Assembly: GCA_017512495.1 (NCBI GenBank)
Contig: JAFWGF010000012.1
Span: 1-36,255, forward strand
Length of the DNA: 36,255 bases
Direction: 5' to 3'
From: Bacilli bacterium
GTDB taxonomy: Bacteria > Bacillota_I > Bacilli_A > RF39 > UBA660
This document shows positions 1,312 through 34,930 of the stretch, piece after piece (position 1 is the first letter of the stretch; every line of letters starts with the position of its first letter). Made by a program: the position numbers and the translations under genes. The notes under the pieces were generated by a model. It saw nothing but the letters and a program-made list of their open reading frames with translations, did not search any database and was not told the origin of the DNA.

Positions 1312-2322
1312 CTAATTATAATAACTGTTACTACAGCGAGAATATGGTGAATAACCATTGATTGCAACTTCACATTCCCAATAATCCTCTTCATAAACAA
1401 CACTTCCAGAAGAAGTAGCATAAGAATCAGGACATCTATAATAGTTAAGAGTGCCCTCGTCTTCATAGCAGTTGTCACTTCCAAAAATAGTATTAAGTGT
1501 TGTCTTATTGATTTCATAAGCTGCTGCTTTTCCTATCAAATAATATAAGTTGTTGTTATAAAAAATACCAACATCCCCTCCAATAACTTGGTTATTACTT
1601 ATAATGTTTCTTATAAATACATTATTTCCTGTATTTAATACTTCTTCTGGTGTTGTATAATAGTCTCCTGCCAAAGATACATTATCATTCATGTGTATCA
1701 AATTTGTGTTAGATCTATATATATAAGTTCTTACTGGTGTTGTAGCAGAATCAGCTTGTGTATAACTTACTGTGAATTCTATGTTGAAACTTTGATCTTC
1801 TGTTGGATAATTTGTTTTATCTGAATTTTCTATATAACTGAATCGAACCTTTAGTGTTTCAGATGCATTTGCTTTTAATTCTTGCTTATTAGCTAACGGA
1901 ACATCATCACTATAACTAATTATATATTCTAAATATTTTGCTTGTGCTGTAGTAAGTGTTGGACTAATAGAAAAACTATCTATCATTGCATCCATTGTTC
2001 CATTATTTACTACATCAACAGTAAATTCATAAAAGTCATTTGGTTCATCTAGAGTTGCCGCAAATGTTACCGTAGTAGGATTTGTTATGCTTGCTGCTGT
2101 TGTTGCGGTAACACTTCCTGTTGTTACATTTAAATTAGTAAAATGCACATCCCATCTAGCTGCTGTTACATTAGCTGTTCCATTGATATTTAAATTACTT
2201 TTGATATAGGCATAACCTATTCCTGTACTCGCAAGCACTATGAAAAGAAGAATATAAATAATATTCATTTTCTTTTGAAATCTTATTCTCTTATCAAATT
2301 TTAATCTTCTTTTAAACGCCAT
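1312..2322 (-). CDS. SipW-type surface protein, copy B, with unique Cys-containing C-terminus
   Basis: 336 aa. Residues 1-191 match copies A and C almost exactly: basic N-terminus, hydrophobic segment, GIGYAYIKSNLNINGTA, then an Ig-like region. Residues 192-336 are unrelated to copy C. They lack the WWLR...PAFRIG end of the DUF6273 type and instead carry a short Tyr/Asn-rich tail with four Cys residues (CYEDEG, YRCPDS, WECEV, SRCSN), which could form disulfides outside the cell. The ribosome site is AGGAAG before the ATG at 2320-2322. The same presentation module thus carries a different passenger. Its role is unknown; a surface adhesin or receptor is plausible but not shown. Confidence 0.8.
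   Translation of the reverse strand: MAFKRRLKFDKRIRFQKKMNIIYILLFIVLASTGIGYAYIKSNLNINGTANVTAARWDVHFTNLNVTTGSVTATTAASITNPTTVTFAATLDEPNDFYEFTVDVVNNGTMDAMIDSFSISPTLTTAQAKYLEYIISYSDDVPLANKQELKANASETLKVRFSYIENSDKTNYPTEDQSFNIEFTVSYTQADSATTPVRTYIYRSNTNLIHMNDNVSLAGDYYTTPEEVLNTGNNVFIRNIISNNQVIGGDVGIFYNNNLYYLIGKAAAYEINKTTLNTIFGSDNCYEDEGTLNYYRCPDSYATSSGSVVYEEDYWECEVAINGYSPYSRCSNSYYN
1750..2322 (-). repeat. Repeated N-terminal module of the tandem surface-protein genes
   Basis: About 573 bp encoding residues 1-191, repeated at 1-519 (partial), 1750-2322 and 3127-3699. The roughly 100 bases next to the start codon look identical between copies B and C, and copy A differs at only a few positions there. Divergence is sharply higher beyond codon 191. 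This pattern indicates recent duplication or gene conversion of the 5' part of the genes. Confidence 0.8.
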
Positions 2323-2374
2323 AAGAATCTTCCTATTCTAAAACAATTATATCAGTAAATGAAAACTTGTTCAA

Positions 2375-2401
2375 CAAAAAAAGTCAAGCTATTCTTGACT
2401 T
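2375..2401 (-). terminator. terminator of surface-protein copy C
   Basis: Perfect stem AAGTCAAG / CTTGACTT (2381-2388 and 2394-2401) with a 5-nt loop, followed on the minus strand by a T run (plus-strand A run 2375-2382). It abuts the stop codon of the gene at 2401-3699. Confidence 0.8.
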
Positions 2402-3699
2402 TAACCAATTCTAAAAGCAGGTGATATATAATTAGTAACATCAGCAGTACTATCGCCCCAATGACCAGTATCATTTACTCTCATAAAATCATCTTTATCA
2501 TCATTGTCAGCTGTACGTAACCACCAATTCTTAGTATTGCCATTATACTTCTTTATAGCTCCATTATTACTGTCTGTTCTAATTCCTTGAGCTTTATAAT
2601 AATCTAGTTGTCTAGTTTCTACTTCTGCCGTATCTCTATCACAAACATTAGTTGTTCCTTCTTTTCCCCAAACTTCTTTTGTTGATAAAAGATATAGTTT
2701 ATCAGTAGTTATAAAATTACTCTCTCCAGATTTTTTTCCATGACCTGATACTACATAAGTATCAATAATATTATTTCTAATAATTTCTGGTATCAAATTA
2801 TACACTGTACTATTTAAATAAGTACGAAGTTCAGCAGCTTCCCAACCACCTTCATTAGTTTCAGAAGAATTCATTTTTTGTTCATCAATAATATCTGCAA
2901 ATTCAAAGACTATTCCACAAGCTGTTTGAGAAAAGCCACTATTTGAACACTCACTCGGAGTTGATGTATTAGCAATTCTTAATGTATGTACTCCTAATGT
3001 TCCCAAATTAACTTCTTTACTAGCTCCGACAGTGTAATAATCCGGTATTCTATTAGTCTTTATATTTTCAATAATATTTTCCCATGATTCATTAGAAAAA
3101 GAATGTTCAACATCAATGGCTGTTTCATCTGCTTGTGTATAAGTCATTGTAAACTCAATAGTAAATTGTTGATCTTCTGTTGGATAATTTGTTTTATCAG
3201 AGTTTTCTATATAACTAAATCTTACTTTTATGGTTTCTGATGTTCCTTGCTTTAATTCTTGTTTATTTTCTAAAGAAGTTCCATCACTATAGACAATTGT
3301 ATATTCTAAGTATTTCTTTTGCGCCGTAGTTAGCGTTGGACTAATAGAAAAACTATCTATCATTGCATCCATTGTCCCTTGATTTGTTACATCTACTGTG
3401 AATTCATAAAAATCGTTTGGTTCATCTAGAGTAGCTGCGAATGTTACTGTTGTTGGGTCTGTTATTGAAGCTGCTGTTGTAGCTGTTACACTACCAGTAG
3501 TTACATTTAAATTAGTAAAATGTACATCCCATCTAGCTGCTGTTACATTAGCTGTTCCATTGATATTTAAATTACTCTTTATATAAGAATAACCTATTCC
3601 TGTACTCGCAAGCACTATGAAAAGAAGAATATAAATAATATTCATTTTCTTTTGAAATCTTATTCTCTTATCAAATTTTAATCTTCTTTTAAACGCCAT
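2401..3699 (-). CDS. SipW-type surface protein with DUF6273-like C-terminal domain, copy C
   Basis: 432 aa. Residues 1-191 are the module shared with copies A and B (basic start, hydrophobic segment about 20-36, GIGYSYIKSNLNINGTA, Ig-like region). Residues about 198-432 form a domain that resembles DUF6273: 'SWENII', 'GTLGVHTLRIAN', 'GGWEAAELRTYLN', 'DKLYLLSTKEVWG', and the end 'WWLRTAD...YISPAFRIG'. This domain is clearly homologous to the C-terminus of the protein at 29948-31261. Domains ending in WWLR...PAF are often variants of a C-type-lectin/sulfatase-modifying-like fold; that is family knowledge recalled, not tested here. The gene has its own terminator at 2375-2401 and starts 49 bases left of the rbfA stop codon. 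Confidence 0.82.
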   Translation of the reverse strand: MAFKRRLKFDKRIRFQKKMNIIYILLFIVLASTGIGYSYIKSNLNINGTANVTAARWDVHFTNLNVTTGSVTATTAASITDPTTVTFAATLDEPNDFYEFTVDVTNQGTMDAMIDSFSISPTLTTAQKKYLEYTIVYSDGTSLENKQELKQGTSETIKVRFSYIENSDKTNYPTEDQQFTIEFTMTYTQADETAIDVEHSFSNESWENIIENIKTNRIPDYYTVGASKEVNLGTLGVHTLRIANTSTPSECSNSGFSQTACGIVFEFADIIDEQKMNSSETNEGGWEAAELRTYLNSTVYNLIPEIIRNNIIDTYVVSGHGKKSGESNFITTDKLYLLSTKEVWGKEGTTNVCDRDTAEVETRQLDYYKAQGIRTDSNNGAIKKYNGNTKNWWLRTADNDDKDDFMRVNDTGHWGDSTADVTNYISPAFRIG

Positions 3700-3738
3700 A
3701 TTCTATCCTCATAATTATTATAGTATATTTTTGTAAAC

Positions 3739-3760
3739 AAAAAAAGACCTAACTGGTCTT
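3739..3760 (-). terminator. terminator of the rimP-rbfA operon
   Basis: Stem AAGACC / GGTCTT (3744-3749 and 3755-3760) with loop TAACT overlaps the rbfA stop codon. It is followed on the minus strand by a T run (plus-strand A run 3739-3745). It closes the translation operon before the surface-protein genes. Confidence 0.75.
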
Positions 3761-4099
3761 CTTTTCATTAATTTCATCAATTAATTTATCAATATGCTCT
3801 CCATAAGCAATAGAAGTATCATAAATAAATTTTAATTCTGGAGTATGTCTTATTTCTACTCTTTCTGCAAGTTTTGTTCTAATAAACGATGCTGCTTTTT
3901 CTAGAGCTTCTGCAGTTTTCTCTTTCTTAGAATCATCTAAAACTGTGTAATATACTTTAGCAAAGCTTAAATCACTAGTTGTATCTACTCCAGTAATAGT
4001 TACAAACTTAATATCTTCATCTTTTACTTCTCTCATAAGTATCATACTTATTTCTTCTTGGAAAGCATGATTTAATCTTTCTATTTTGATACTTGCCAT
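3749..4099 (-). CDS. rbfA: Ribosome-binding factor A
   Basis: 116 aa, the usual length for RbfA. The sequence has the characteristic opening 'RLNHAFQEEISMILMREVKD', the central 'VTITGVDTTSDLSFAKVYYTVL' and the 'RHTPELKFIYDTS' block of the KH-like fold. RbfA binds the free 30S subunit and helps mature the 5' end of 16S rRNA. It is the last gene of the rimP-nusA-ylxR-infB-rbfA operon, five bases after infB, and ends in a terminator. In Bacillus the next gene is truB, which here lies upstream of rimP instead. Confidence 0.95.
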   Translation of the reverse strand: MASIKIERLNHAFQEEISMILMREVKDEDIKFVTITGVDTTSDLSFAKVYYTVLDDSKKEKTAEALEKAASFIRTKLAERVEIRHTPELKFIYDTSIAYGEHIDKLIDEINEKKTS

Positions 4100-4103
4100 A
4101 ATA

Positions 4104-6242
4104 TTACCTCTTAATTTCTACTAGTTCGTATACTTCGATGATATCTCCCTCTTTATAATCTTGACAATTTTCTAGAGTCATACCACAGTCCATATCTTTT
4201 TTAACTTCTTTCACTTGATCTTTTTCATGTTGTAGTGTTTTTACTGAACCATTGTATACTACTATATCATCTCTAATTATACGAGCTTTTAAATTGTTCT
4301 TAATCATTCCACTAGTAACATGGCATCCTGCTATTAAACCTACTTTAGAGAATTTAAAGATTTGTCTTATTTCAGCAGTACCTACTACTTTTTCTTCAAA
4401 TTCTGGATCTAACATACCTTTCATAGCTCTTTCCATGTCTTCTACTACTTTATAAATAATATCATATGTCTTTATTTCGATTCCATATTGTTTAGCATAA
4501 TCAATAGTAGAACCTGTACCTCTAACATTAAATCCAATAATAATAGCATTTGAAGCACTAGCTAATACTACATCACTTTCAGTAATAGCTCCTACTCCAC
4601 CTCTTATTACAGATACTTTTACACCTTCAACATCTATTTTTTCTAAAGCTCCTCTTACAGCTTCTAAAGAACCATTTACATCAGCTTTTAATACTACTTT
4701 AATTTCTTTTTGACCTTCTTTAATTCTTCCAAATAAATCTTCTAAAGTCATACCACTAAAGTTAGTATCTTTTTCTTTTGAACGAAGTGCTCTTTCACTA
4801 GCAATTTCTTTTGCTTGTTTTTCTGTTTCAAAAGCCATGAATTTATCACCAGCGCTAGGTACTTCTGAAATACCTGTTACTTCTACTGGCGTAGATGGAC
4901 CTGCTTCTGTAATATTTTGCCCTTTATCATTCTTTAATGTTCTAACTTTACCTGCAAAGTTACCAATAACAATTGGATCTCCTAATCTAATAGTTCCATT
5001 TTGTACTAATAATGTTGCGATAGAACCAACTTTTGAATCTTTCTTAGCTTCTACTACGGCACCACTTGCATAACGTGATGGATTAGCTTTATACTCATGC
5101 ATTTCAGCAACTAATAAAATACTTTCTAATAGTTCATCAACACCTTGTCCTGATTTAGCAGAAATCTTATTAACAATGGTATCTCCTCCCCATTCTTCAG
5201 GAGTTAATCCATTTTCTACTAAAGCAGTCATTATTCTATCTACATTAGCTTCAGGTTTATCAATCTTATTAATAGCAACGATAATTGGTACTCCAGCAGC
5301 TTTAGCATGATCAATTGCTTCTTTTGTTTGAGGCATTACACCATCATCAGCAGCTACTATAATAATTACTATATCTGTAATACTAGCTCCTCTAGCTCTC
5401 ATCTCAGTAAAAGCAGCATGTCCTGGTGTATCAATAAATGTAATTCTCTTATCATTACACTTAACAGAATAAGCACCAATAGCTTGAGTAATTCCTCCAG
5501 CTTCTCCACCAACTACATCAGTCTTTCTAATATAATCTAATAAAGTAGTTTTACCATGATCAACATGTCCCATAATAGTAACTACTGGTGGACGTTCCAC
5601 TAAATCCTCTTCTTTATCTTCTATTTCATAATTTTCAAAATTAGAAATATCGGCAGTTTCTTCTTTCTTTAACACCTTATCATAATCAGTAACAATAACT
5701 TCAACAGTATCATAATCAAGTGCTTGATTTAGCGAAGCCATTACTCCTAAACCAATTAATTTTTTAATTAAATCAGTTGGATTAATTTCTAATAAATTAG
5801 CTAATTCAGTAACAGTCATTCCTTCTTTATAAAGAATAACATTATCTGCTACTTCTGCTTCATTACTTTGAAGCTTTTCACGATGTTTATATAATTTCTT
5901 TCTTTCTTTTAAAAAGTCTTTTTTGTTGTCAGTCTTCTTTGCTTCTTTAGTTTGTTTTACTTTAGTAAATGAAGTAGTATTCTCTAAATCAAATCCTGTA
6001 TTACTAGCTAATTCTTCTGCTTTAGATTCTACTTCTTCTTCTATTCTTTGTTCTTCTAAATCGTCACTATCTTCTCCAATATAGTCTTCTTCATCTTGCA
6101 TTTCATTATCTAGTAAAGTAATACTAATATCATCTAATAAAGATTTTTCATCTTCATAATTAATTCCCACTTTATCACATAAAGCTTTTATTTCTTCTAC
6201 AGATTTTCCTACATCTAATGCATAATCTTCTAAAGTCATCAT
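4104..6242 (-). CDS. infB: Translation initiation factor IF-2
   Basis: 712 aa. An acidic, charged N-terminal region (1-~130) precedes the IF2_N domain (~135-190), then the GTPase domain with G1 GHVDHGKT (225-232), G3 DTPGH (271-275) and G4 NKID (325-328). The beta-barrel and C-terminal domains that bind fMet-tRNA follow. IF-2 places initiator tRNA on the 30S subunit and promotes subunit joining. Two ATGs in a row (MMTLED) follow a GAGGTGAG site, so either may be used. In Bacillus ylxQ lies between ylxR and infB; here only 11 bases separate them, so ylxQ is missing. Confidence 0.97.
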   Translation of the reverse strand: MMTLEDYALDVGKSVEEIKALCDKVGINYEDEKSLLDDISITLLDNEMQDEEDYIGEDSDDLEEQRIEEEVESKAEELASNTGFDLENTTSFTKVKQTKEAKKTDNKKDFLKERKKLYKHREKLQSNEAEVADNVILYKEGMTVTELANLLEINPTDLIKKLIGLGVMASLNQALDYDTVEVIVTDYDKVLKKEETADISNFENYEIEDKEEDLVERPPVVTIMGHVDHGKTTLLDYIRKTDVVGGEAGGITQAIGAYSVKCNDKRITFIDTPGHAAFTEMRARGASITDIVIIIVAADDGVMPQTKEAIDHAKAAGVPIIVAINKIDKPEANVDRIMTALVENGLTPEEWGGDTIVNKISAKSGQGVDELLESILLVAEMHEYKANPSRYASGAVVEAKKDSKVGSIATLLVQNGTIRLGDPIVIGNFAGKVRTLKNDKGQNITEAGPSTPVEVTGISEVPSAGDKFMAFETEKQAKEIASERALRSKEKDTNFSGMTLEDLFGRIKEGQKEIKVVLKADVNGSLEAVRGALEKIDVEGVKVSVIRGGVGAITESDVVLASASNAIIIGFNVRGTGSTIDYAKQYGIEIKTYDIIYKVVEDMERAMKGMLDPEFEEKVVGTAEIRQIFKFSKVGLIAGCHVTSGMIKNNLKARIIRDDIVVYNGSVKTLQHEKDQVKEVKKDMDCGMTLENCQDYKEGDIIEVYELVEIKR

Positions 6243-8413: not shown

Positions 8414-9811
8414 TTAATTAAAATTTTTCCATACTTTTAAATTGTTATGACTAACTTCATAGATTCCTAATAATTTATCATTATATGTAAATATTACTTT
8501 GTCTTTAATATTCCATTTATTAGATACTTTTACTCCGTTAGATATTACTTTTAATAAATCTTCTTTAATATCAACAATTGGATAATCTAGTACTTCTTCT
8601 ATCTTATAATATTTATAATTATTACTTTCTATTTCTTCTAATGTATTAGTCTTTTCAATAAAAATATTACCTTGTTTAGTTCTAACTAAAGATGTCATTG
8701 TACCAATAGTATCTAAAGATTTGCATATATCATTAATCAAACTTCTTATATAACAACCTTTAGTAACTAAAGATCTAAATGTAAATGTATTATCATTATT
8801 ACTTAATAATTCTATTTCTTTTATAGTTACTTCTTTCTTTGGTAATTCTACATCTATATTATTTCTAGCATATTCATATAACTTTTTACCTTTTACTTTT
8901 ACAGCAGAATATACTGGTACTTCTTGTAGATAAGTCTTTTTAAAACTATTTAGAACTTCTTCAAGATTTAAACTACTTGGAACTTCTTTTTCTTCTAAAA
9001 CTTCTCCAGTAATATCTAAAGTATCAGTTTTAATTCCTAATTTAACTTCAGCAATATATTCTTTATCTTCACTAGTTAATAATTCAACTATTTTAGTAGC
9101 TTTACCAACACATACTAACATAACACCGGTAGCTAAAGGATCTAATGTACCAGTATGTCCTACTCTTTTAATTCCAAACAAATTACTTATTTTATAAACT
9201 ACATCATAAGAAGTTACATCTTTTGGTTTATTAATATAAAGTACACAACCAAAATCTTTTAAATATTCTTCTAAAGTTAAATTATTTTCATAAATAATCT
9301 TAGCTGGTATTTCTCCAACATATCTAATATGCCATGGTTCATAATTATATCCTGTAATATTTTCTTTATTTTCTGGATATCTTAAAATAAAACCAAATTT
9401 ATATAGATATGGATGTATTTTCTTTAATACTGGTTCAGTTATATTAAATTTATCATCACTATAAATAAATTCTCCATCAATCATTACTTCTATATCAATA
9501 GCTAATCCTGTATGATGTTCTGAATATCCTACTTCTGCAACATATTTATCACAATAATCTTTACCATTTTTATTTAAATAATCATCATAAATAGCTTGTT
9601 GATATGAAAAATCTCGATAAGCTGTATCAATACCTATTTCTAAATCTAATTTTTCTTTTATAAATTCTTTTAATTTTAAATAATTATTATAAGTTTCTTC
9701 TTCTATTAAAGTATCTTCATTTAAAACATTCTTAGTAGTAATTAAATTAACTTTACTTAGATAATTATCTTTAATTTTATTTTCTTTATTAACTAATACT
9801 TTATATTTCAT
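8414..9811 (-). CDS. truB: Fusion of a VanY/VanXY-type D-Ala peptidase domain to tRNA pseudouridine-55 synthase TruB
   Basis: 465 aa in one uninterrupted frame. Residues ~1-185 are a peptidase M15B domain: S97-x-H99-x-x-G102-x-A104-x-D106 (SEHHTGLAID) and E158-P-W-H161 supply the zinc ligands and catalytic Glu typical of D-Ala-D-Ala carboxypeptidases. Residues ~188-465 are TruB, with the motif GHTGTLDPLATG (218-229) and catalytic D224, which makes pseudouridine 55 in the T loop of tRNA. There is no signal peptide or membrane span, so the peptidase half should be cytoplasmic, like VanX or VanXY. TruB alone is about 290 aa; this fusion is unusual. The gene has its own terminator and sits upstream of rimP rather than after rbfA. 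Confidence 0.9.
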   Translation of the reverse strand: MKYKVLVNKENKIKDNYLSKVNLITTKNVLNEDTLIEEETYNNYLKLKEFIKEKLDLEIGIDTAYRDFSYQQAIYDDYLNKNGKDYCDKYVAEVGYSEHHTGLAIDIEVMIDGEFIYSDDKFNITEPVLKKIHPYLYKFGFILRYPENKENITGYNYEPWHIRYVGEIPAKIIYENNLTLEEYLKDFGCVLYINKPKDVTSYDVVYKISNLFGIKRVGHTGTLDPLATGVMLVCVGKATKIVELLTSEDKEYIAEVKLGIKTDTLDITGEVLEEKEVPSSLNLEEVLNSFKKTYLQEVPVYSAVKVKGKKLYEYARNNIDVELPKKEVTIKEIELLSNNDNTFTFRSLVTKGCYIRSLINDICKSLDTIGTMTSLVRTKQGNIFIEKTNTLEEIESNNYKYYKIEEVLDYPIVDIKEDLLKVISNGVKVSNKWNIKDKVIFTYNDKLLGIYEVSHNNLKVWKNFN

Positions 9812-11802: not shown

Positions 11803-11854
11803 ACTATCACCTCTATTATTATTTTATCACCAAATTATAAATATTACTAATATA

Positions 11855-13696
11855 TTATTTTGAAGATGTTTTCTCTTCAGTTTCTTGATTAGATTCTTGT
11901 GTATATGTAAATAATGAAACAATTAAATCGCTATTAAGTCTTGATTCATTTATTTCCTCTTCATTGATATGATACTTAACATTAGTATCTTCTTCCCATT
12001 TACTTAAAGTTTCTTTAGCTACTCTCATTAGTTTTTCATCAGAATAAGCTTGTGCTGGCAATGCTATTTCTATTTGATCACTTCTATAATATACTGGATT
12101 TCTTTGCTTTATTCTTTTAGTTAATATTTCAATTATTTTAGTTAATTCTCCAACATTTATTTTTGCTTTGAATTTATCTGCTCCATCAGAATCAGAAAGT
12201 ATTAAATCAATACTATCAAAATCTTTTATATATAGAGCTTTTCTATAATCTATTTCATATGTAAAATGAGTAATACTATTTCTTAATCTTCTAAAGAATT
12301 CATTTGTATATGCATAGTGCGGCTTAAAATTATCAATTTCTTTTTGATTTATTTTAAGTAATTGAATAACATCTTTTAACTCTTTGTTTTTTTCTTTAAG
12401 AGTATCATTTAAGATAATTAATTTTTCTTTTTTTTCTGTTTCTGTTAATTCTTTATTAGAAGTAATACCTTCTATTTGTGCATTACAACTATTTATTTTT
12501 CTATTAAGTTTCTTTCTTTCTTTTTTTAGATATTTACGTTCTTCAACTAAATACTGTGGACTATCAATATGTTTAACATAGTCTGATTCAGAACCTTCTA
12601 AAAATTCTACATTTTGTACTTCAATATCCTGATAAACCACTTCATTTGTCTTATCTCTTGTCGAAGCCTCTTTAGCAAAATTTAATGAATAATATGCATA
12701 ATCAGAAAAAACAGAAATAAATGCAAAAGGAGAAATATAAGGGGTATTTAATGCAGCATCAAAAAAATTTTCTTCACTAGTCGTTTTATAAACAAAATCA
12801 TTTTTTATTGGCTTACTCAAATAAAATTCATTATGAACATCATAAAATTCATTATTAATTATTTTATTTAAAAACAAACTTAACAATTCTTCTCTAAGAT
12901 ACGGATGTATCTGTATCCAATTTTTTTCTCCATAATACCTAATATATTTACTTACCAATCTTTTAGTTTCAGAATCTATTTTTTCCTGATTTATAGCTAT
13001 TTCTTTAGAAGGAGACAAACAAAGATGTGTAGTACCAATAGGTACTGTGCCTAATACTGGAACAAAATATTCTACGAGTCCTCTTTCAAATTTTATTTTT
13101 GTAATTTTATTTAATGCTGTTTGCCATTCTCTTTGATTTGTCGTTTTTAACTCAGCAAATGGAAAATAATTAGCTAAATAACTATCCCTCTTGACATTTA
13201 ACATCTTTTGATCTCGCATTATATCAGACATATAGTGAACTATCTCTAGCGGTAATACTGCTTTTATTTTTTCATCTTCAAATATAACAGATATTTTTTC
13301 ATCAGTAATTGCTAATTTAAAAGTTGCATGAGCAAAAGCATTTCTAATACATACAATTATTTGATCTTCACTTAGGGGTTCTGTTTTCTTTATTATGTAC
13401 TCATCTAATTTTAGCTTTATATAAATATTTTTTAATATTGTTAAATACCTATTTTCATCAATAGAATTATCTTTTTTTAATATTTCCATATTTCTTAACA
13501 TTTTAGATATAGCTGAATTAAGAAATACTTTTAAAATTGTTATGTGATTTACTAATGTATATTCACTTATTACTTTACCTTTGTTAACATTTCTAATGTT
13601 AGCACAATGCCTCCAGTACTGTAATAAAAAACTGTAAAAATCCAACACTTTATCATAGTCTTTAAAATTATCGATAATTTTGATTGGTTTACTCAT
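11855..13696 (-). CDS. Double-HEPN putative ribonuclease
   Basis: 613 aa. Two HEPN-type active-site motifs R-N-x-x-x-H are visible: R118-NAFA-H123 and R472-NSIT-H477. Each is followed by a similar beta-rich stretch and a helix ('ISVIFED...LEIVHYMSDI' and 'LYIKDFDSIDLIL...VGELTKIIEIL'), so the protein looks like two related HEPN-beta halves. Between them, residues ~385-455 are strongly charged and likely coiled-coil. HEPN domains of this motif are mostly RNases in abortive-infection, toxin-antitoxin and Cas13 effectors. No CRISPR array or obvious partner antitoxin is adjacent. The start is the ATG at 13694-13696 behind AGGTGAT; an upstream extension to 13726 would begin upstream of the promoter -10. 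Function is inferred. Confidence 0.7.
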   Translation of the reverse strand: MSKPIKIIDNFKDYDKVLDFYSFLLQYWRHCANIRNVNKGKVISEYTLVNHITILKVFLNSAISKMLRNMEILKKDNSIDENRYLTILKNIYIKLKLDEYIIKKTEPLSEDQIIVCIRNAFAHATFKLAITDEKISVIFEDEKIKAVLPLEIVHYMSDIMRDQKMLNVKRDSYLANYFPFAELKTTNQREWQTALNKITKIKFERGLVEYFVPVLGTVPIGTTHLCLSPSKEIAINQEKIDSETKRLVSKYIRYYGEKNWIQIHPYLREELLSLFLNKIINNEFYDVHNEFYLSKPIKNDFVYKTTSEENFFDAALNTPYISPFAFISVFSDYAYYSLNFAKEASTRDKTNEVVYQDIEVQNVEFLEGSESDYVKHIDSPQYLVEERKYLKKERKKLNRKINSCNAQIEGITSNKELTETEKKEKLIILNDTLKEKNKELKDVIQLLKINQKEIDNFKPHYAYTNEFFRRLRNSITHFTYEIDYRKALYIKDFDSIDLILSDSDGADKFKAKINVGELTKIIEILTKRIKQRNPVYYRSDQIEIALPAQAYSDEKLMRVAKETLSKWEEDTNVKYHINEEEINESRLNSDLIVSLFTYTQESNQETEEKTSSK

Positions 13697-13717
13697 ACTA
13701 TCACCTACTATTATTTT

Positions 13718-13746
13718 ATCATACATAAAAATTAAAAAAGTGTAAA
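13718..13746 (-). promoter_or_regulatory. Promoter of the double-HEPN gene
   Basis: On the minus strand, -35 TTTACA (13741-13746), 17-base spacer, -10 TATGAT (13718-13723). The -35 box is part of the polC terminator stem, so the gene can be transcribed independently of polC. Confidence 0.6.
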
Positions 13747-13769
13747 AATAATTATCTTTACACTTTTTT
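13734..13769 (-). terminator. Terminator of polC
   Basis: Perfect 13-bp stem AAAAAAGTGTAAA / TTTACACTTTTTT (13734-13746 and 13757-13769) with a 10-nt loop, touching the polC stop codon. A/T-rich ends give U runs on both strands. Confidence 0.8.
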
Positions 13770-29947: not shown

Positions 29948-31261
29948 TTAACCAATTCGGAAAGCTGGAGAAACCCCCATAGTACCATTAGAACTGTTGT
30001 GGACCCAGTCACCAAAGTTGGTCACAGTGCAGAAACTGTAATTATTGTTAGAATTAGCCGAGCGCATCCACCAATAAGAAATTGAACCATTATTCAGTTT
30101 AATTGCTCCTGAGTAATTACTTGTTGTAACATTTTGTGAACTATAATAATCTAATTGTCTTGTATTATTATATGCTGTATCATAGCTATCTATTCCACTA
30201 TTTGTATTTCCATCTACATCTTCCCATACTTCATGTGTTGATAACAAATATATTTTATCTATTGATGTGAAGTTTGTCTCTCCACTTGTTGATCCATGTC
30301 CTGATACTACTGTTGTATTGATTATTCCGCTTTTTAATTCAGATGGCAATGCATTATATATATCACTATTTACATATGTCCTCATCTCACTTGCTGGCCA
30401 TCCTCCTATATTTCTATATCCTGTTGTTGCACCTGAAGTATATGGATTCATTATATGAGTTGTGATTATATCTACAAACTCTAAGACAAATCCACATGCT
30501 GTTTGTGAGGATCCTGTTGTAGAGCATTCTGCTGGTGTACTTTTATTGGCTATACGAAGTGTATGTGTTCCTAAGCTTCCCATATCTACTGTCTTTGTAT
30601 CTCCTACATTATAATTACTTGTATTACCTGAACGAACATTAGCAATTATTGTTTCCCATGAATCCAATTCAAACTGACTTAGATGTATTACTTCAGTTGC
30701 AGCATCAGTTGCTTGTCTATATGTTACTGTAAATTGAAATGGTAAACTTTGATTTGTTGCTGGTATTTGATTTAATTCTATATCATCTTTATATTTTATT
30801 CTTACTTTGTATGTTTCTGTTGTTCCTGCAGCTAGTAATTGATTTACTGCTAGTGGTACTCCATCAGAATAAGTTACTGTATATTCTAAATAATCTGGTA
30901 GATTGGTTATTGTTGCCCCATTAAGCTTAGATGTAATGCTGTCTATCATTCCATCTATTGTACCTGAGTTAACTGCATCTACTGTGAACTCATAATAATC
31001 TCCTGGTATATTTAAGACTACTGAATATGTTACTGTAGTCTGAGCACTATTAATAGTTGGTGTAGATGCACTTACTGATCCTTCTTTTACTTGTACATTT
31101 GCCCAATGAATATTCCATGTAGGTGCTCCCATATTAGCTGTTCCATTGATATTTAAATTACTTTGGATGAGAGCATATCCTATTCCTAGTATGAGAATTA
31201 AATTTACTATGATTGATACTACACTTTGTTTTTTTCTTCTAGCAAATTTTCTTCTTCTCAT
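29948..31261 (-). CDS. SipW-type surface protein with DUF6273-like domain and atypical 3' end
   Basis: 437 aa from the ATG at 31259-31261, behind GGAGGGAT; an upstream extension to 31312 is not supported by a ribosome site. A basic start (MRRRKFARRKKQ), a hydrophobic segment and GIGYALIQSNLNINGTA match the tandem family at the left end, followed by an Ig-like region and a DUF6273-like C-terminal domain ('GSLGTHTLRIANKSTPAEC', 'GGWPASEMRTYVN', 'DKIYLLSTHEVW', 'WWMRSAN...GVSPAFRIG'). It aligns over its full length with copy C. The last ~120 bases differ sharply from the rest in composition (see the separate entry). It interrupts the space between yqeY and yqfC. Confidence 0.82.
   Translation of the reverse strand: MRRRKFARRKKQSVVSIIVNLILILGIGYALIQSNLNINGTANMGAPTWNIHWANVQVKEGSVSASTPTINSAQTTVTYSVVLNIPGDYYEFTVDAVNSGTIDGMIDSITSKLNGATITNLPDYLEYTVTYSDGVPLAVNQLLAAGTTETYKVRIKYKDDIELNQIPATNQSLPFQFTVTYRQATDAATEVIHLSQFELDSWETIIANVRSGNTSNYNVGDTKTVDMGSLGTHTLRIANKSTPAECSTTGSSQTACGFVLEFVDIITTHIMNPYTSGATTGYRNIGGWPASEMRTYVNSDIYNALPSELKSGIINTTVVSGHGSTSGETNFTSIDKIYLLSTHEVWEDVDGNTNSGIDSYDTAYNNTRQLDYYSSQNVTTSNYSGAIKLNNGSISYWWMRSANSNNNYSFCTVTNFGDWVHNSSNGTMGVSPAFRIG
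29951..30070 (-). other. Candidate diversity-generating retroelement variable region
   Basis: The last ~40 codons of the surface-protein gene. By hand count, 54 of these 120 bases are G or C (45%), against 32 of the next 120 (27%) in the same gene. Codons ending in C are frequent (CGC, AAC, TAC, TTC, TGC, ACC, GAC, GTC, CAC), which is rare elsewhere in the window. The encoded stretch is Asn/Ser-rich between conserved WWMRSA and GVSPAFRI. NNC codons at the 3' end of a lectin-like fold gene are the mark of adenine mutagenesis. No template repeat or reverse transcriptase is in the window. Confidence 0.45.
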
Positions 31262-31300
31262 ACTATCCCTCCTATTATAATTATACATTTTTTTGTAATA

Positions 31301-31324
31301 AAAAAAAAGCATCTTTTGATGCTT
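31301..31324 (-). terminator. Terminator of yqeY
   Basis: AAGCATC / GATGCTT stem (31307-31313 and 31318-31324) with loop TTTT, followed on the minus strand by eight T. Confidence 0.85.
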
Positions 31325-32136: not shown

Positions 32137-32310
32137 TTAGTCTAACGGACACATTTTATTTTCACTTATTCTTCTAATACCAGAACCAACACTATAACCA
32201 GCATCTCTTAATAAATTAATCACATTAACAATTGCATTTATAATTGGACCATTCACAGTAGTATTACCTCCAGTTATATTATCAAGTTTATCATCACTAA
32301 TTTTATTCAT
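32137..32310 (-). CDS. Double-glycine bacteriocin precursor peptide 2
   Basis: 57 aa from the ATG at 32308-32310, behind GGAGG nine bases upstream; a longer frame reading out to 32394 lies in the other precursor gene. The leader MNKISDDKLDNITGG (15 residues) ends in Gly-Gly, the cut site for C39 peptidases. The predicted mature peptide has 42 residues, with an amphipathic middle (NGPIINAIVNVINLLRDAG), a G38-x3-G42 motif and one Cys near the end. GxxxG motifs are typical of class IIb two-peptide bacteriocins. It overlaps the first precursor gene by 4 bases (ATGA). No immunity gene follows. Confidence 0.75.
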   Translation of the reverse strand: MNKISDDKLDNITGGNTTVNGPIINAIVNVINLLRDAGYSVGSGIRRISENKMCPLD

Positions 32311-32462
32311 GCTTTGCAACCTCCAGGATTTACCATGCCGTCTATTAAACCCGCCAAGAATATAACTATAGAGGCAATAGCTATACCAGTCCAAACAGTT
32401 ACTGTTGCGCCACCTTTTATTTTCTCTAAATTATCATCACTTATTTTACTAATTCTAATCAC
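32307..32462 (-). CDS. Double-glycine bacteriocin precursor peptide 1 (start uncertain)
   Basis: 51 aa if read from the GTG at 32460-32462. The leader ends ISDDNLEKIKGG and is clearly related to that of peptide 2. The mature part of 33 residues is strongly hydrophobic (WTGIAIASIVIFLAGLIDG) with G38-x3-G42 and ends PGGCKA. The GTG has no good ribosome site, whereas AAGGTGAT stands at proper spacing before an ATT at 32451-32453. Starting there gives a 15-residue leader that lines up exactly with peptide 2. It overlaps both neighbouring genes, so expression is coupled. Together with peptide 2 it may form a two-peptide bacteriocin. Confidence 0.7.
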   Translation of the reverse strand: MIRISKISDDNLEKIKGGATVTVWTGIAIASIVIFLAGLIDGMVNPGGCKA

Positions 32463-32868
32463 CTTCCCAAATAATTTTAAATATTTTAATTAATAATATT
32501 CTTCCTTTTATAAAAACCAAATTCATTACATCATTTGTTTTAATCTTTTTATTTTTAAAGGGAAACTTTAATACTAGCTGGTAGTAATCTTTATTACCTT
32601 TATGCATTACTATTCCTCTATCTTCAATAATTTTATATTTTCTTTTAAAATCATTGAAAAACAATGTTTTATTACTATAGACAGTTTTTCTTTCTTCTTT
32701 GTCTACTACTACTAAAACCAAATCTTTTTTTATTACCAATCCAGTAATTTTAGAATACTCATTTATCTTAAAAGTATTTAGAAAAACAATAACTATTACC
32801 TCTACAATTAATACTACTAATACTAAAAAAGTAATTAATTCTTTTTTTTCATAATTTCTAACTTTCAT
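32455..32868 (-). CDS. Small membrane accessory protein of the bacteriocin exporter
   Basis: 137 aa with one membrane span (~11-31) and a basic outer domain rich in beta strands. The stretch 'KFPFKNKKIKTNDVMNLVFIKGRILLIKIFKIIWE' recalls the C-terminal barrel of HlyD/LcnD-type adaptor proteins, but the long coiled-coil hairpin of that family is absent. Its frame overlaps the ABC exporter by 11 bases and the first precursor gene by 8. A helper in secretion is inferred from position and topology; immunity is the alternative. Confidence 0.6.
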   Translation of the reverse strand: MKVRNYEKKELITFLVLVVLIVEVIVIVFLNTFKINEYSKITGLVIKKDLVLVVVDKEERKTVYSNKTLFFNDFKRKYKIIEDRGIVMHKGNKDYYQLVLKFPFKNKKIKTNDVMNLVFIKGRILLIKIFKIIWEGD

Positions 32869-34930
32869 GAATTATTCCTTTATCTAATTTTAAAACTCGA
32901 TCAAATACTTTCTTATTATTAAAACGATGCGATATAACTATTATTGTTTTATCTTGTAAATACTTAAAGATGTTTTCTAATATTTTTTTCTCTCTACTAA
33001 TATCAATTTGAGTTAATGCTTCATCAAAAATATAAATATTACTTTTTTTTATAATACTCCTTGCTAAAATTATTCTTTGTCTTTCTCCGTTACTAAAATT
33101 AAAACCATTTTCTTCAACTAAAGCATCATATCCATTACCAATATTTTTAACAATATCATCTACTAAACATACTTTACAAATTTCATTAAACTCTTCTTCA
33201 CTATAATCTTTATACAATAAAATATTATTTCTAATTGTATCTGTAAATAAATATTCATTACTAGTTACATAAGTAATATTTGATCTAATATTTTCTAAAT
33301 GATAATGGTTTATATCAATACCAGCTATTTTAATCTTATTAAAATCTACTTCAACATATCTTAAAAGCATTTTCATTAAAGTACTTTTACCACTACCACT
33401 TTCTCCACTTAGTAATATTTTTTCTCCTTGTTTTATTTCTAAATTTAAATCTTTAAACAAATATTTACTACCCATCTTATAACTCAAATTATTATAATTA
33501 ATATTACCTATTAATGTAAATGTTAAATAAAAATAATTGTTTTTAAAATTATCTCTATTAATCATAAAAATTTCTTCAACTCTATTCAAAGCTACTTTAT
33601 ATGAATTATATTCTTCTAAAATACTTATCAAGTTATAAAAACTATTATTATAATATGAAAAGAAAAGTTGATATACAATTAAATTATTTAGAGGTAAAAA
33701 TCCCTTTACAACATGATAAGATCCTAAGCCAAAAATTATTAATAAAGAAATATCATTTATAATATTCTTATTAAAAGTATATTTTTCTAAAAGTAAATTA
33801 TAAGAATAAATAGACTCTAAAAAAGATTTATAATTAAGTGAAAATTTGTCAATTAATCTCTTTTCTAAGTGACTACCTTTAACAGTATCAACATTACTTA
33901 TTCCTTGAATTAAATATGAATTAATTATATCTTCTTTATTACTAATATTCTTAATTAATTTTCTTTTTTGGGGATTTATTAAAAATTGATAGATTATTAA
34001 ACTAATAGTAGAAATAATAAGATATATAGTCATCTTTTTATTGTAATTAAACATTATAATTGTAAAAATTATGATACTTATTAAATCAGTAGAAATAATG
34101 CAGAAGAATTTATTAATAAAATTACGGATAGTATTTAAATCTTTGAATCTAGAAACAACTTCTCCAGTAGTTCTATTTTTATAATATAAATATGGAAGTA
34201 AAAGTAATTGTTTATAAGTGTTAGTTGTTACTTCATTATCAAATAATATTATCCATTTACTAAGTAGTATATTTCTCAGTAAATTATTTATATTTTTAAG
34301 TAGATATAAAATAATCATAATAGTAGTTATATAGTATATATTTTTTGTTAAATCATAATTAATAGAGTATTCTAAAAGATATTTAAAATGAAAAGAAGTA
34401 TGTATGTTTAAAACAAAAAATGATAATGTTAAAAATACTATGATGAATAATAATTTTTTATTCATTTTAAATAATTCAATAATATTTTTATAAATTATAT
34501 TTCTCTTCTGCATTATTGGTAATTTTTTAATAGGCTTTAAAAATATATAATTATTACTTGATAATAAATTAAACTCCGCAATTGAGATTATTTTCTTTCC
34601 TTTACTAGGATCCATTAAAGTTACTTGACTTTTCTTTTTATTAATTTCATATAAAACAACAAAATGTTTATAACTTTTATTCACAATAAAATGGGCTATA
34701 CAGGGTAAGTTATTTACTTCTATATTTTCTATTTTTCCTGAAAGACCTATTGCTTCAAAACCAATTATTTTTGCCCCTTCAATTAAATTGTAAAAAGAAA
34801 CTCCATCTTTAGTAGTATTTGTTATTTCTCTTAAGTATTCCTTAGATACTTCTCCACCATAAAATCTAATAATAGATAAGAGACAGCAAATTCCACAATC
34901 TTTAATACCATCCTGAAGAACTACTTTCAC
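32858..34930 (-). CDS. Peptidase C39-containing ABC bacteriocin exporter
   Basis: 690 aa. Residues 1-~130 are a C39 cysteine peptidase: Q6, catalytic C12 in 'KDCGICCL', H89 in 'YKHFVVLYE' and D107 in 'LMDPSKG'. About six membrane spans follow (~150-430), then the ATPase domain with Walker A 'GESGSGKST', signature 'FSNGERQR' (a variant of LSGGQ), Walker B 'IYIFDEALTQ' and the 'VISHR' His loop. Such transporters cut double-glycine leaders and export the peptide. The start is GTG (34928-34930), 14 bases from GGAGG, with a duplicated GTGAAAGTA at 34922-34930 and 34937-34945. First gene of the bacteriocin operon. Confidence 0.92.
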   Translation of the reverse strand: MKVVLQDGIKDCGICCLLSIIRFYGGEVSKEYLREITNTTKDGVSFYNLIEGAKIIGFEAIGLSGKIENIEVNNLPCIAHFIVNKSYKHFVVLYEINKKKSQVTLMDPSKGKKIISIAEFNLLSSNNYIFLKPIKKLPIMQKRNIIYKNIIELFKMNKKLLFIIVFLTLSFFVLNIHTSFHFKYLLEYSINYDLTKNIYYITTIMIILYLLKNINNLLRNILLSKWIILFDNEVTTNTYKQLLLLPYLYYKNRTTGEVVSRFKDLNTIRNFINKFFCIISTDLISIIIFTIIMFNYNKKMTIYLIISTISLIIYQFLINPQKRKLIKNISNKEDIINSYLIQGISNVDTVKGSHLEKRLIDKFSLNYKSFLESIYSYNLLLEKYTFNKNIINDISLLIIFGLGSYHVVKGFLPLNNLIVYQLFFSYYNNSFYNLISILEEYNSYKVALNRVEEIFMINRDNFKNNYFYLTFTLIGNINYNNLSYKMGSKYLFKDLNLEIKQGEKILLSGESGSGKSTLMKMLLRYVEVDFNKIKIAGIDINHYHLENIRSNITYVTSNEYLFTDTIRNNILLYKDYSEEEFNEICKVCLVDDIVKNIGNGYDALVEENGFNFSNGERQRIILARSIIKKSNIYIFDEALTQIDISREKKILENIFKYLQDKTIIVISHRFNNKKVFDRVLKLDKGIIHES

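Follow-up and report, generated by a model that had tools for sequence, protein, structure and literature searches.

Known HEPN proteins and the tandem-HEPN gene

HEPN RNases are known as a kind, and pairs of HEPN domains on a single chain have been described for Cas13 and Csm6-2. HEPNs typically homodimerise, and the two HEPNs of Cas13 pair intramolecularly (PMC12165695); these Cas13 domains have been placed with AbiD/F, and the AbiD branch is the proposed source of Cas13 (PMC12165695). In Csm6-2, an ancillary RNase of type III CRISPR systems, two modules arranged in tandem dimerise within the molecule (PMC13187428), and Csx1 is listed with a HEPN dyad (PMC3710099). AbiD and AbiF (Abi_2, PF07751) are defence-associated proteins with a single HEPN and the motif context RNLCAH. 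The pEK499_p136 (PF18736) proteins are single-domain "HEPN family nucleases" of enterobacterial plasmids, about 150 aa in length and with one HEPN, and pEK499_p136 HEPNs are also found in the R-M and Pgl defence operons of other bacteria (PMC3710099).

The window analyzed here (the whole stretch of 36,255 nucleotides from a Bacilli bacterium) carries on its minus strand a gene for a 613 aa protein with two HEPN motifs (13696 to 11855). In having two such motifs per chain this tandem-HEPN protein resembles CRISPR-Cas13, including the compact Cas13an and Cas13e, but no CRISPR array or Rfam RNA was found for it and, in profile comparison with AbiD, neither of its HEPNs resembles that branch. It shares with Csm6-2 the arrangement of two tandem HEPN modules per polypeptide; unlike Csm6-2 and the Csx1-type CARF-HEPN proteins, however, it has no CARF domain detectable by Pfam, PADLOC or NCBIfam, and no type III CRISPR locus was seen within the window. 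AbiD/AbiF proteins are likewise HEPN proteins and are genomic neighbours in some relatives, but they lack profile similarity to it. The PF18736 proteins align with its second module over the motif, strands and last helix and more weakly with its first, while the tandem-HEPN protein has a second module and, in addition, a middle region and a coiled-coil hairpin. The preliminary description held that the protein is not tied to CRISPR, and this agrees with the absence of CRISPR-like repeats from the window and 15 related loci and of any match to Rfam families at the gathering threshold.

The reading frame (11855..13696, ATG at 13696, stop at 11855) is supported by 18 full-length homologues and a family-HMM match. 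An RBS-like AGGTGA is found at 13706-13701, just 5' of the ATG; an alternative longer frame would start at 13726 and encode 623 aa. A promoter-like site (TTTACA-17-TATGAT, 10/12 match, minus strand, 13718..13746) lies 21 nt 5' of the ATG but is weak, as the scan returned 24 sites against 22.7 expected. Immediately 3' of the polC stop is an A/T-rich hairpin on the minus strand (13734..13769, inverted repeat I11), a candidate terminator that was not picked up by the terminator scan; it suggests that the tandem-HEPN gene is its own transcription unit. A 17 nt direct repeat flanks the gene (11813-11829 and 13705-13721). It was considered as an insertion footprint and dropped because in both genes the promoter/RBS region overlaps with it, and a common start signal is the simpler explanation.

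Conservation of the two motifs

Translation confirms that both motifs reported in the preliminary description, R118-NAFA-H123 (13328..13345, minus strand) and R472-NSIT-H477 (12266..12283, minus strand), are exact R-N-x3-H sequences at the residues given; the protein has no further match to R-x4-H. The chance expectation for R-N-x3-H is 0.03, and two or more such motifs were found in 43 of 100,000 composition shuffles. Conservation across homologues is a stronger test of the motifs than these shuffle statistics. A search with the single protein recovered only two distant relatives, and the family was therefore built from a PF18736 search followed by iterative profile searches with growing alignments. 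It comprises 19 full-length proteins, the window protein and 18 relatives that are 13-24% identical to it, most of them 545-700 aa in length (one is 833 aa, and one lacks its start because it is cut by the end of its locus).

Both [R/K]-N-x3-H motifs are kept in 19/19 full-length members. The only invariant columns of the 19-row alignment are N119, H123, R472, N473 and H477, while R118, A122 and D502 are conserved at 90% or more (R118 in 18/19, with K in the member L006). The conserved R-x4-6-H of the HEPN superfamily, often R-N-x3-H, therefore occurs twice in 19/19 homologues. Homologues lacking both R and H, which had been named as grounds for abandoning the HEPN assignment, were not encountered among the full-length proteins. 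Furthermore, dN/dS between two close family copies is 0.24, which indicates that the gene is under constraint (purifying selection). On the evidence of motif conservation and the profile matches given below, both modules are HEPN domains and both motifs are under selection.

Predicted structure and relation of the two halves

An AlphaFold2 model built from the 19-row family alignment had a mean pLDDT of 74.7 and a pTM of 0.70; an earlier run with three sequences was poor (pLDDT 53). In the predicted structure, the first motif lies at the end of helix 110-122 and is followed by strands at 127-149 and a helix at 150-167, and the second lies at the end of helix 465-476 and is followed by strands at 480-514 and a helix at 515-532. 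The similar beta-then-helix regions noted earlier from sequence are thus present after each motif, and pLDDT is about 83-94 near both. The predicted secondary structure puts both motifs on HEPN-like helical elements.

The model divides the protein into four parts, all encoded on the minus strand. The HEPN1 module (residues about 14-167, 13196..13657) consists of four helices, the fourth ending in the motif, three strands and a helix, with pLDDT of 80-94 in most blocks except around residues 30-50. It is followed by a poorly conserved middle region (residues about 173-317, 12746..13180), of which 284-317 is of low confidence, and by the HEPN2 module (residues about 318-532, 12101..12745), within which the PF18736 match described below falls. 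The C-terminal tail (residues about 533-613, 11858..12100) is variable and of low confidence. The preliminary description had the two modules split by a coiled coil. In the model the separator is instead the middle region of ~150 residues, and the coiled-coil hairpin (residues 381-447, 12356-12556), which directly precedes the core of HEPN2, probably represents extended helices of HEPN2 itself. A Foldseek search of the whole chain against the PDB and viral models returned no significant match (best E-value against solved structures: 0.18).

When compared as profiles, HEPN1 and HEPN2 matched each other with a probability of 95.7% (E-value: 1e-8), while control comparisons of either module with the middle region gave 0.2-0.4%. 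With the motif masked, the score fell to 9.9% (E-value: 0.003), so that most of the similarity comes from the motif. The tandem arrangement proposed earlier is supported, while an internal duplication is plausible rather than proven. It is likely that the two modules arose either by duplication or by fusion of related HEPNs, the similarity beyond the motif being thin.

Relationship to pEK499_p136 HEPNs

PF18736 matched residues 436-524 of the window protein (E-value: 2.3e-4) at 21.4 bits, below the curated cut-off of 26.6. A relative in G740 scored above this cut-off (27.8 bits) in the genome search, and among 16 members examined, three matched PF18736 (best E-value: 1.2e-6). The same 16 members gave weak matches to HEPN_MAE_28990 and Abi_2 and to the PADLOC models RTasHEPN (four members) and CARF_HEPN (two models). 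Profile comparison was then made with a pEK499_p136 set containing one protein from a relative, three plasmid proteins and, from a further protein of the window's genome, its C-terminal HEPN. HEPN2 matched this profile with a probability of 95.3% (E-value: 2e-8) over the motif, strands and last helix, and HEPN1 with a probability of 57% (E-value: 1e-4). This further protein (G000:C41:4063-4338, L021) is a second HEPN protein, in a frame of about 1,010 aa with RNAFAH near its C-terminus, and scores above the PF18736 cut-off.

The window protein was not recognized by the PADLOC defence models or NCBIfam. A description of the family was not found in the open-access literature searched for tandem or two-HEPN proteins and for pEK499_p136.

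Distribution and genomic context

All 19 full-length members belong to the window's taxonomic family, and the gene is present in 8 of 39 genomes of the genus and 8 of 193 genomes of the family. Two family loci also occur in uncultured Firmicutes/Bacilli metagenome-assembled genomes, one of them from goat colon. No member was found in a sample of 214 other genomes of the phylum, or among the viral contigs and the plasmid and phage collections searched. In the gene tree, which has long branches, each of the two main clades includes members from the genus, with four label changes of which at least three are forced. A truncated extra copy (L010) in G061:C28 (L017:9788-10795) retains the first motif only, as KN-x3-H; it adjoins a degraded-looking stretch, and an intact copy is found on C1 of the same genome. 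Weak matches in G286, G359, G489 and G387 were rejected as unrelated proteins. Two genes precede the G168 copy (L079:1688-2839 and 3179-4705, the nearer overlapping it) and look by eye like motif-less versions of it; they were rejected as dead paralogues since neither matches the family HMM.

In the window, the tandem-HEPN gene lies between polC and a gene for a 278 aa membrane protein. Comparison by blastn with the sister genome G727, which of the relatives sampled is nearest at polC (96% over the C-terminus of PolC), delimits an accessory cassette (11845..13768): the flanks are 91% (polC) and 75% (next gene) identical, while the interior is unrelated and encodes a different, 272 aa protein in G727. 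This replacement protein (L075:1381-2199) has a glycine-rich tail and no Pfam match, and by eye may be a type VII secretion system (T7SS) substrate. G756 carries its own copy, 24% identical, in the same polC-rimP interval (L074), where two consecutive and apparently mutually related genes (301 and 294 aa, L074:2650-4457) stand just before it; the second has no Pfam match. Other copies occupy many unrelated sites, beside prfB, thrS, secA, polysaccharide genes and others (gene names assigned by eye). Core-gene neighbours of many copies include polC, prfB, thrS, valS, secA and ftsK, and most copies lie among core genes rather than in clear defence islands. No conserved partner gene, small or otherwise, was found beside family copies. 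A conserved linkage to the 278 aa membrane protein, raised in the preliminary description, was rejected, as G727 has the membrane protein without the HEPN gene and the membrane protein does not stand beside other copies. The tandem-HEPN gene is thus an accessory gene: patchy, single, and swapped for another gene in G727.

In G738, G729 and G740, the tandem-HEPN gene stands immediately behind an AbiD-HtrA pair (for the G729 AbiD, Abi_2 E-value: 1.6e-41, PADLOC AbiD E-value: 5.8e-61), and in G734 an HtrA-like gene is also in place before it. A dedicated AbiD-HtrA-tandem-HEPN operon was considered and rejected. Of 21 additional genomes, 20, including the window's own, carry AbiD, usually with HtrA and whether or not they have the tandem-HEPN gene, which points to a shared position rather than a dedicated partnership. 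These AbiD genes (Abi_2, HEPN; G000:C29:28553-29500 in L092, L077:5370-7317 and L086-L105) are 55-84% identical and usually overlap the gene for the HtrA-like trypsin/PDZ protease. In several genomes AbiD adjoins a type VII-secretion-like cluster. A gene named for defence here behaves as a core gene.

Proposed function

We lean slightly towards the reading that the protein is a stand-alone HEPN endoribonuclease, its two pEK499_p136-like modules pairing within one chain, with a probable role in defence or stress. RNase activity would be expected from the family to which its modules belong. The coiled-coil hairpin may bring the modules together and so unite R118/H123 with R472/H477 in one composite site within the chain, as suggested by analogy with Cas13 and Csm6-2 (PMC12165695, PMC13187428). 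The enzyme would be latent until triggered by a signal, for which the middle region, itself poorly conserved, or the C-terminal tail may be the sensor. Once active, it might cleave cellular RNA and halt growth, acting as a one-gene system for abortive infection or stress. A defence role is suggested by the accessory, swappable distribution of the gene and by related HEPN proteins, since pEK499_p136 domains occur in defence operons, but is weakened because there is no clear defence-island setting. Other points against this reading are the K in place of R118 in L006 and in truncated L010, the lack of a significant Foldseek match, the non-recognition by PADLOC and the core-gene settings.

An unlikely but still serious alternative is a regulatory or housekeeping RNase, acting in RNA processing or stress without a role against phages, or a toxin with a non-adjacent antitoxin. 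The position of many copies beside core genes is consistent with this, as is the absence of the family from the phage, plasmid and viral collections. A gene that can be cleanly replaced and that only a few percent of the family's genomes carry is, however, unlike a housekeeping gene, and a toxin is disfavoured by the lack of a conserved small partner gene. Somewhat less probable is an active site at the interface of two chains, each module meeting its counterpart (HEPN1 with HEPN1, HEPN2 with HEPN2), which would give two composite sites per dimer and the same RNase chemistry. Homodimerisation is the rule for HEPNs (PMC12165695) and nothing in the analysis places the two motifs together, but 19/19 members conserve the two motifs together on a single chain, and in both known tandem cases, Cas13 and Csm6-2, the pairing is intramolecular (PMC12165695, PMC13187428).

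The preliminary description also raised kinship to Cas13 or Abi effectors, and kinship of this kind, to Cas13 or its AbiD/F ancestors, is now improbable. In its favour are the two HEPNs per chain, the position of the gene in three or four genomes, where it is the second gene behind AbiD, and, in one member, a match to the NCBIfam Cas13e model that spans the HEPN2 motif. This match is weak (20.9 bits against a cut-off of 175, E-value: 1.6e-4) and can be read as motif similarity, and Cas13 models did not match the window protein. When HEPN1 and HEPN2 were compared with 22 AbiD sequences, using shallow profiles and with AbiD standing in for Cas13 itself, the probabilities were 0.1-0.6%, against 57-95% for the pEK499_p136 proteins. 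As described above, neither CRISPR repeats nor a known guide RNA were found at the loci examined, and AbiD is core in the genus irrespective of the tandem-HEPN gene. Together, the pEK499_p136 match and the lack of an AbiD match make the protein look like a HEPN pairing separate from that of Cas13. A secreted T7SS effector is barely credible, for although T7SS-like clusters lie upstream of the copies in G738, G729 and G740 by eye and the G727 replacement gene may encode a T7SS substrate, no N-terminus of secretion type and no neighbouring immunity gene were seen, and parts of the cluster also occur in genomes without the tandem-HEPN gene.

If the stand-alone endoribonuclease is a separate HEPN fusion, without guide or CARF, then the fused arrangement arose more than once. 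We consider it close to an even chance, though a little short of one, that two fused pEK499_p136-type HEPNs represent an independent, non-CRISPR use of a Cas13-like principle, a self-contained, switchable RNase that serves streamlined gut Bacilli in defence and has no relation to the AbiD/F-Cas13 branch. The family would offer a small system for asking what switches such an RNase on, and it marks accessory sites of small-genome gut Bacilli that lie outside current defence catalogues.

Other features of the window

Three further features were observed. By eye, the gene at 8414-9811 encodes a TruB-like pseudouridine synthase with an N-terminal stretch like a VanY-type peptidase, and this VanY-like start recurs at the same place in several genomes of the genus. 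Surface-type proteins encoded at 1312-3699 and 29948-31312 share a similar N-terminal module (LNINGTAN...), which is near-identical in the two neighbouring ones; the proteins apparently form a repeated gene family. At 32137-34930, a small peptide with a double-glycine-like leader (LDNITGGN) is encoded beside a 690 aa ABC transporter with a peptidase-like N-terminus; judged by eye, this is a possible bacteriocin export cluster.
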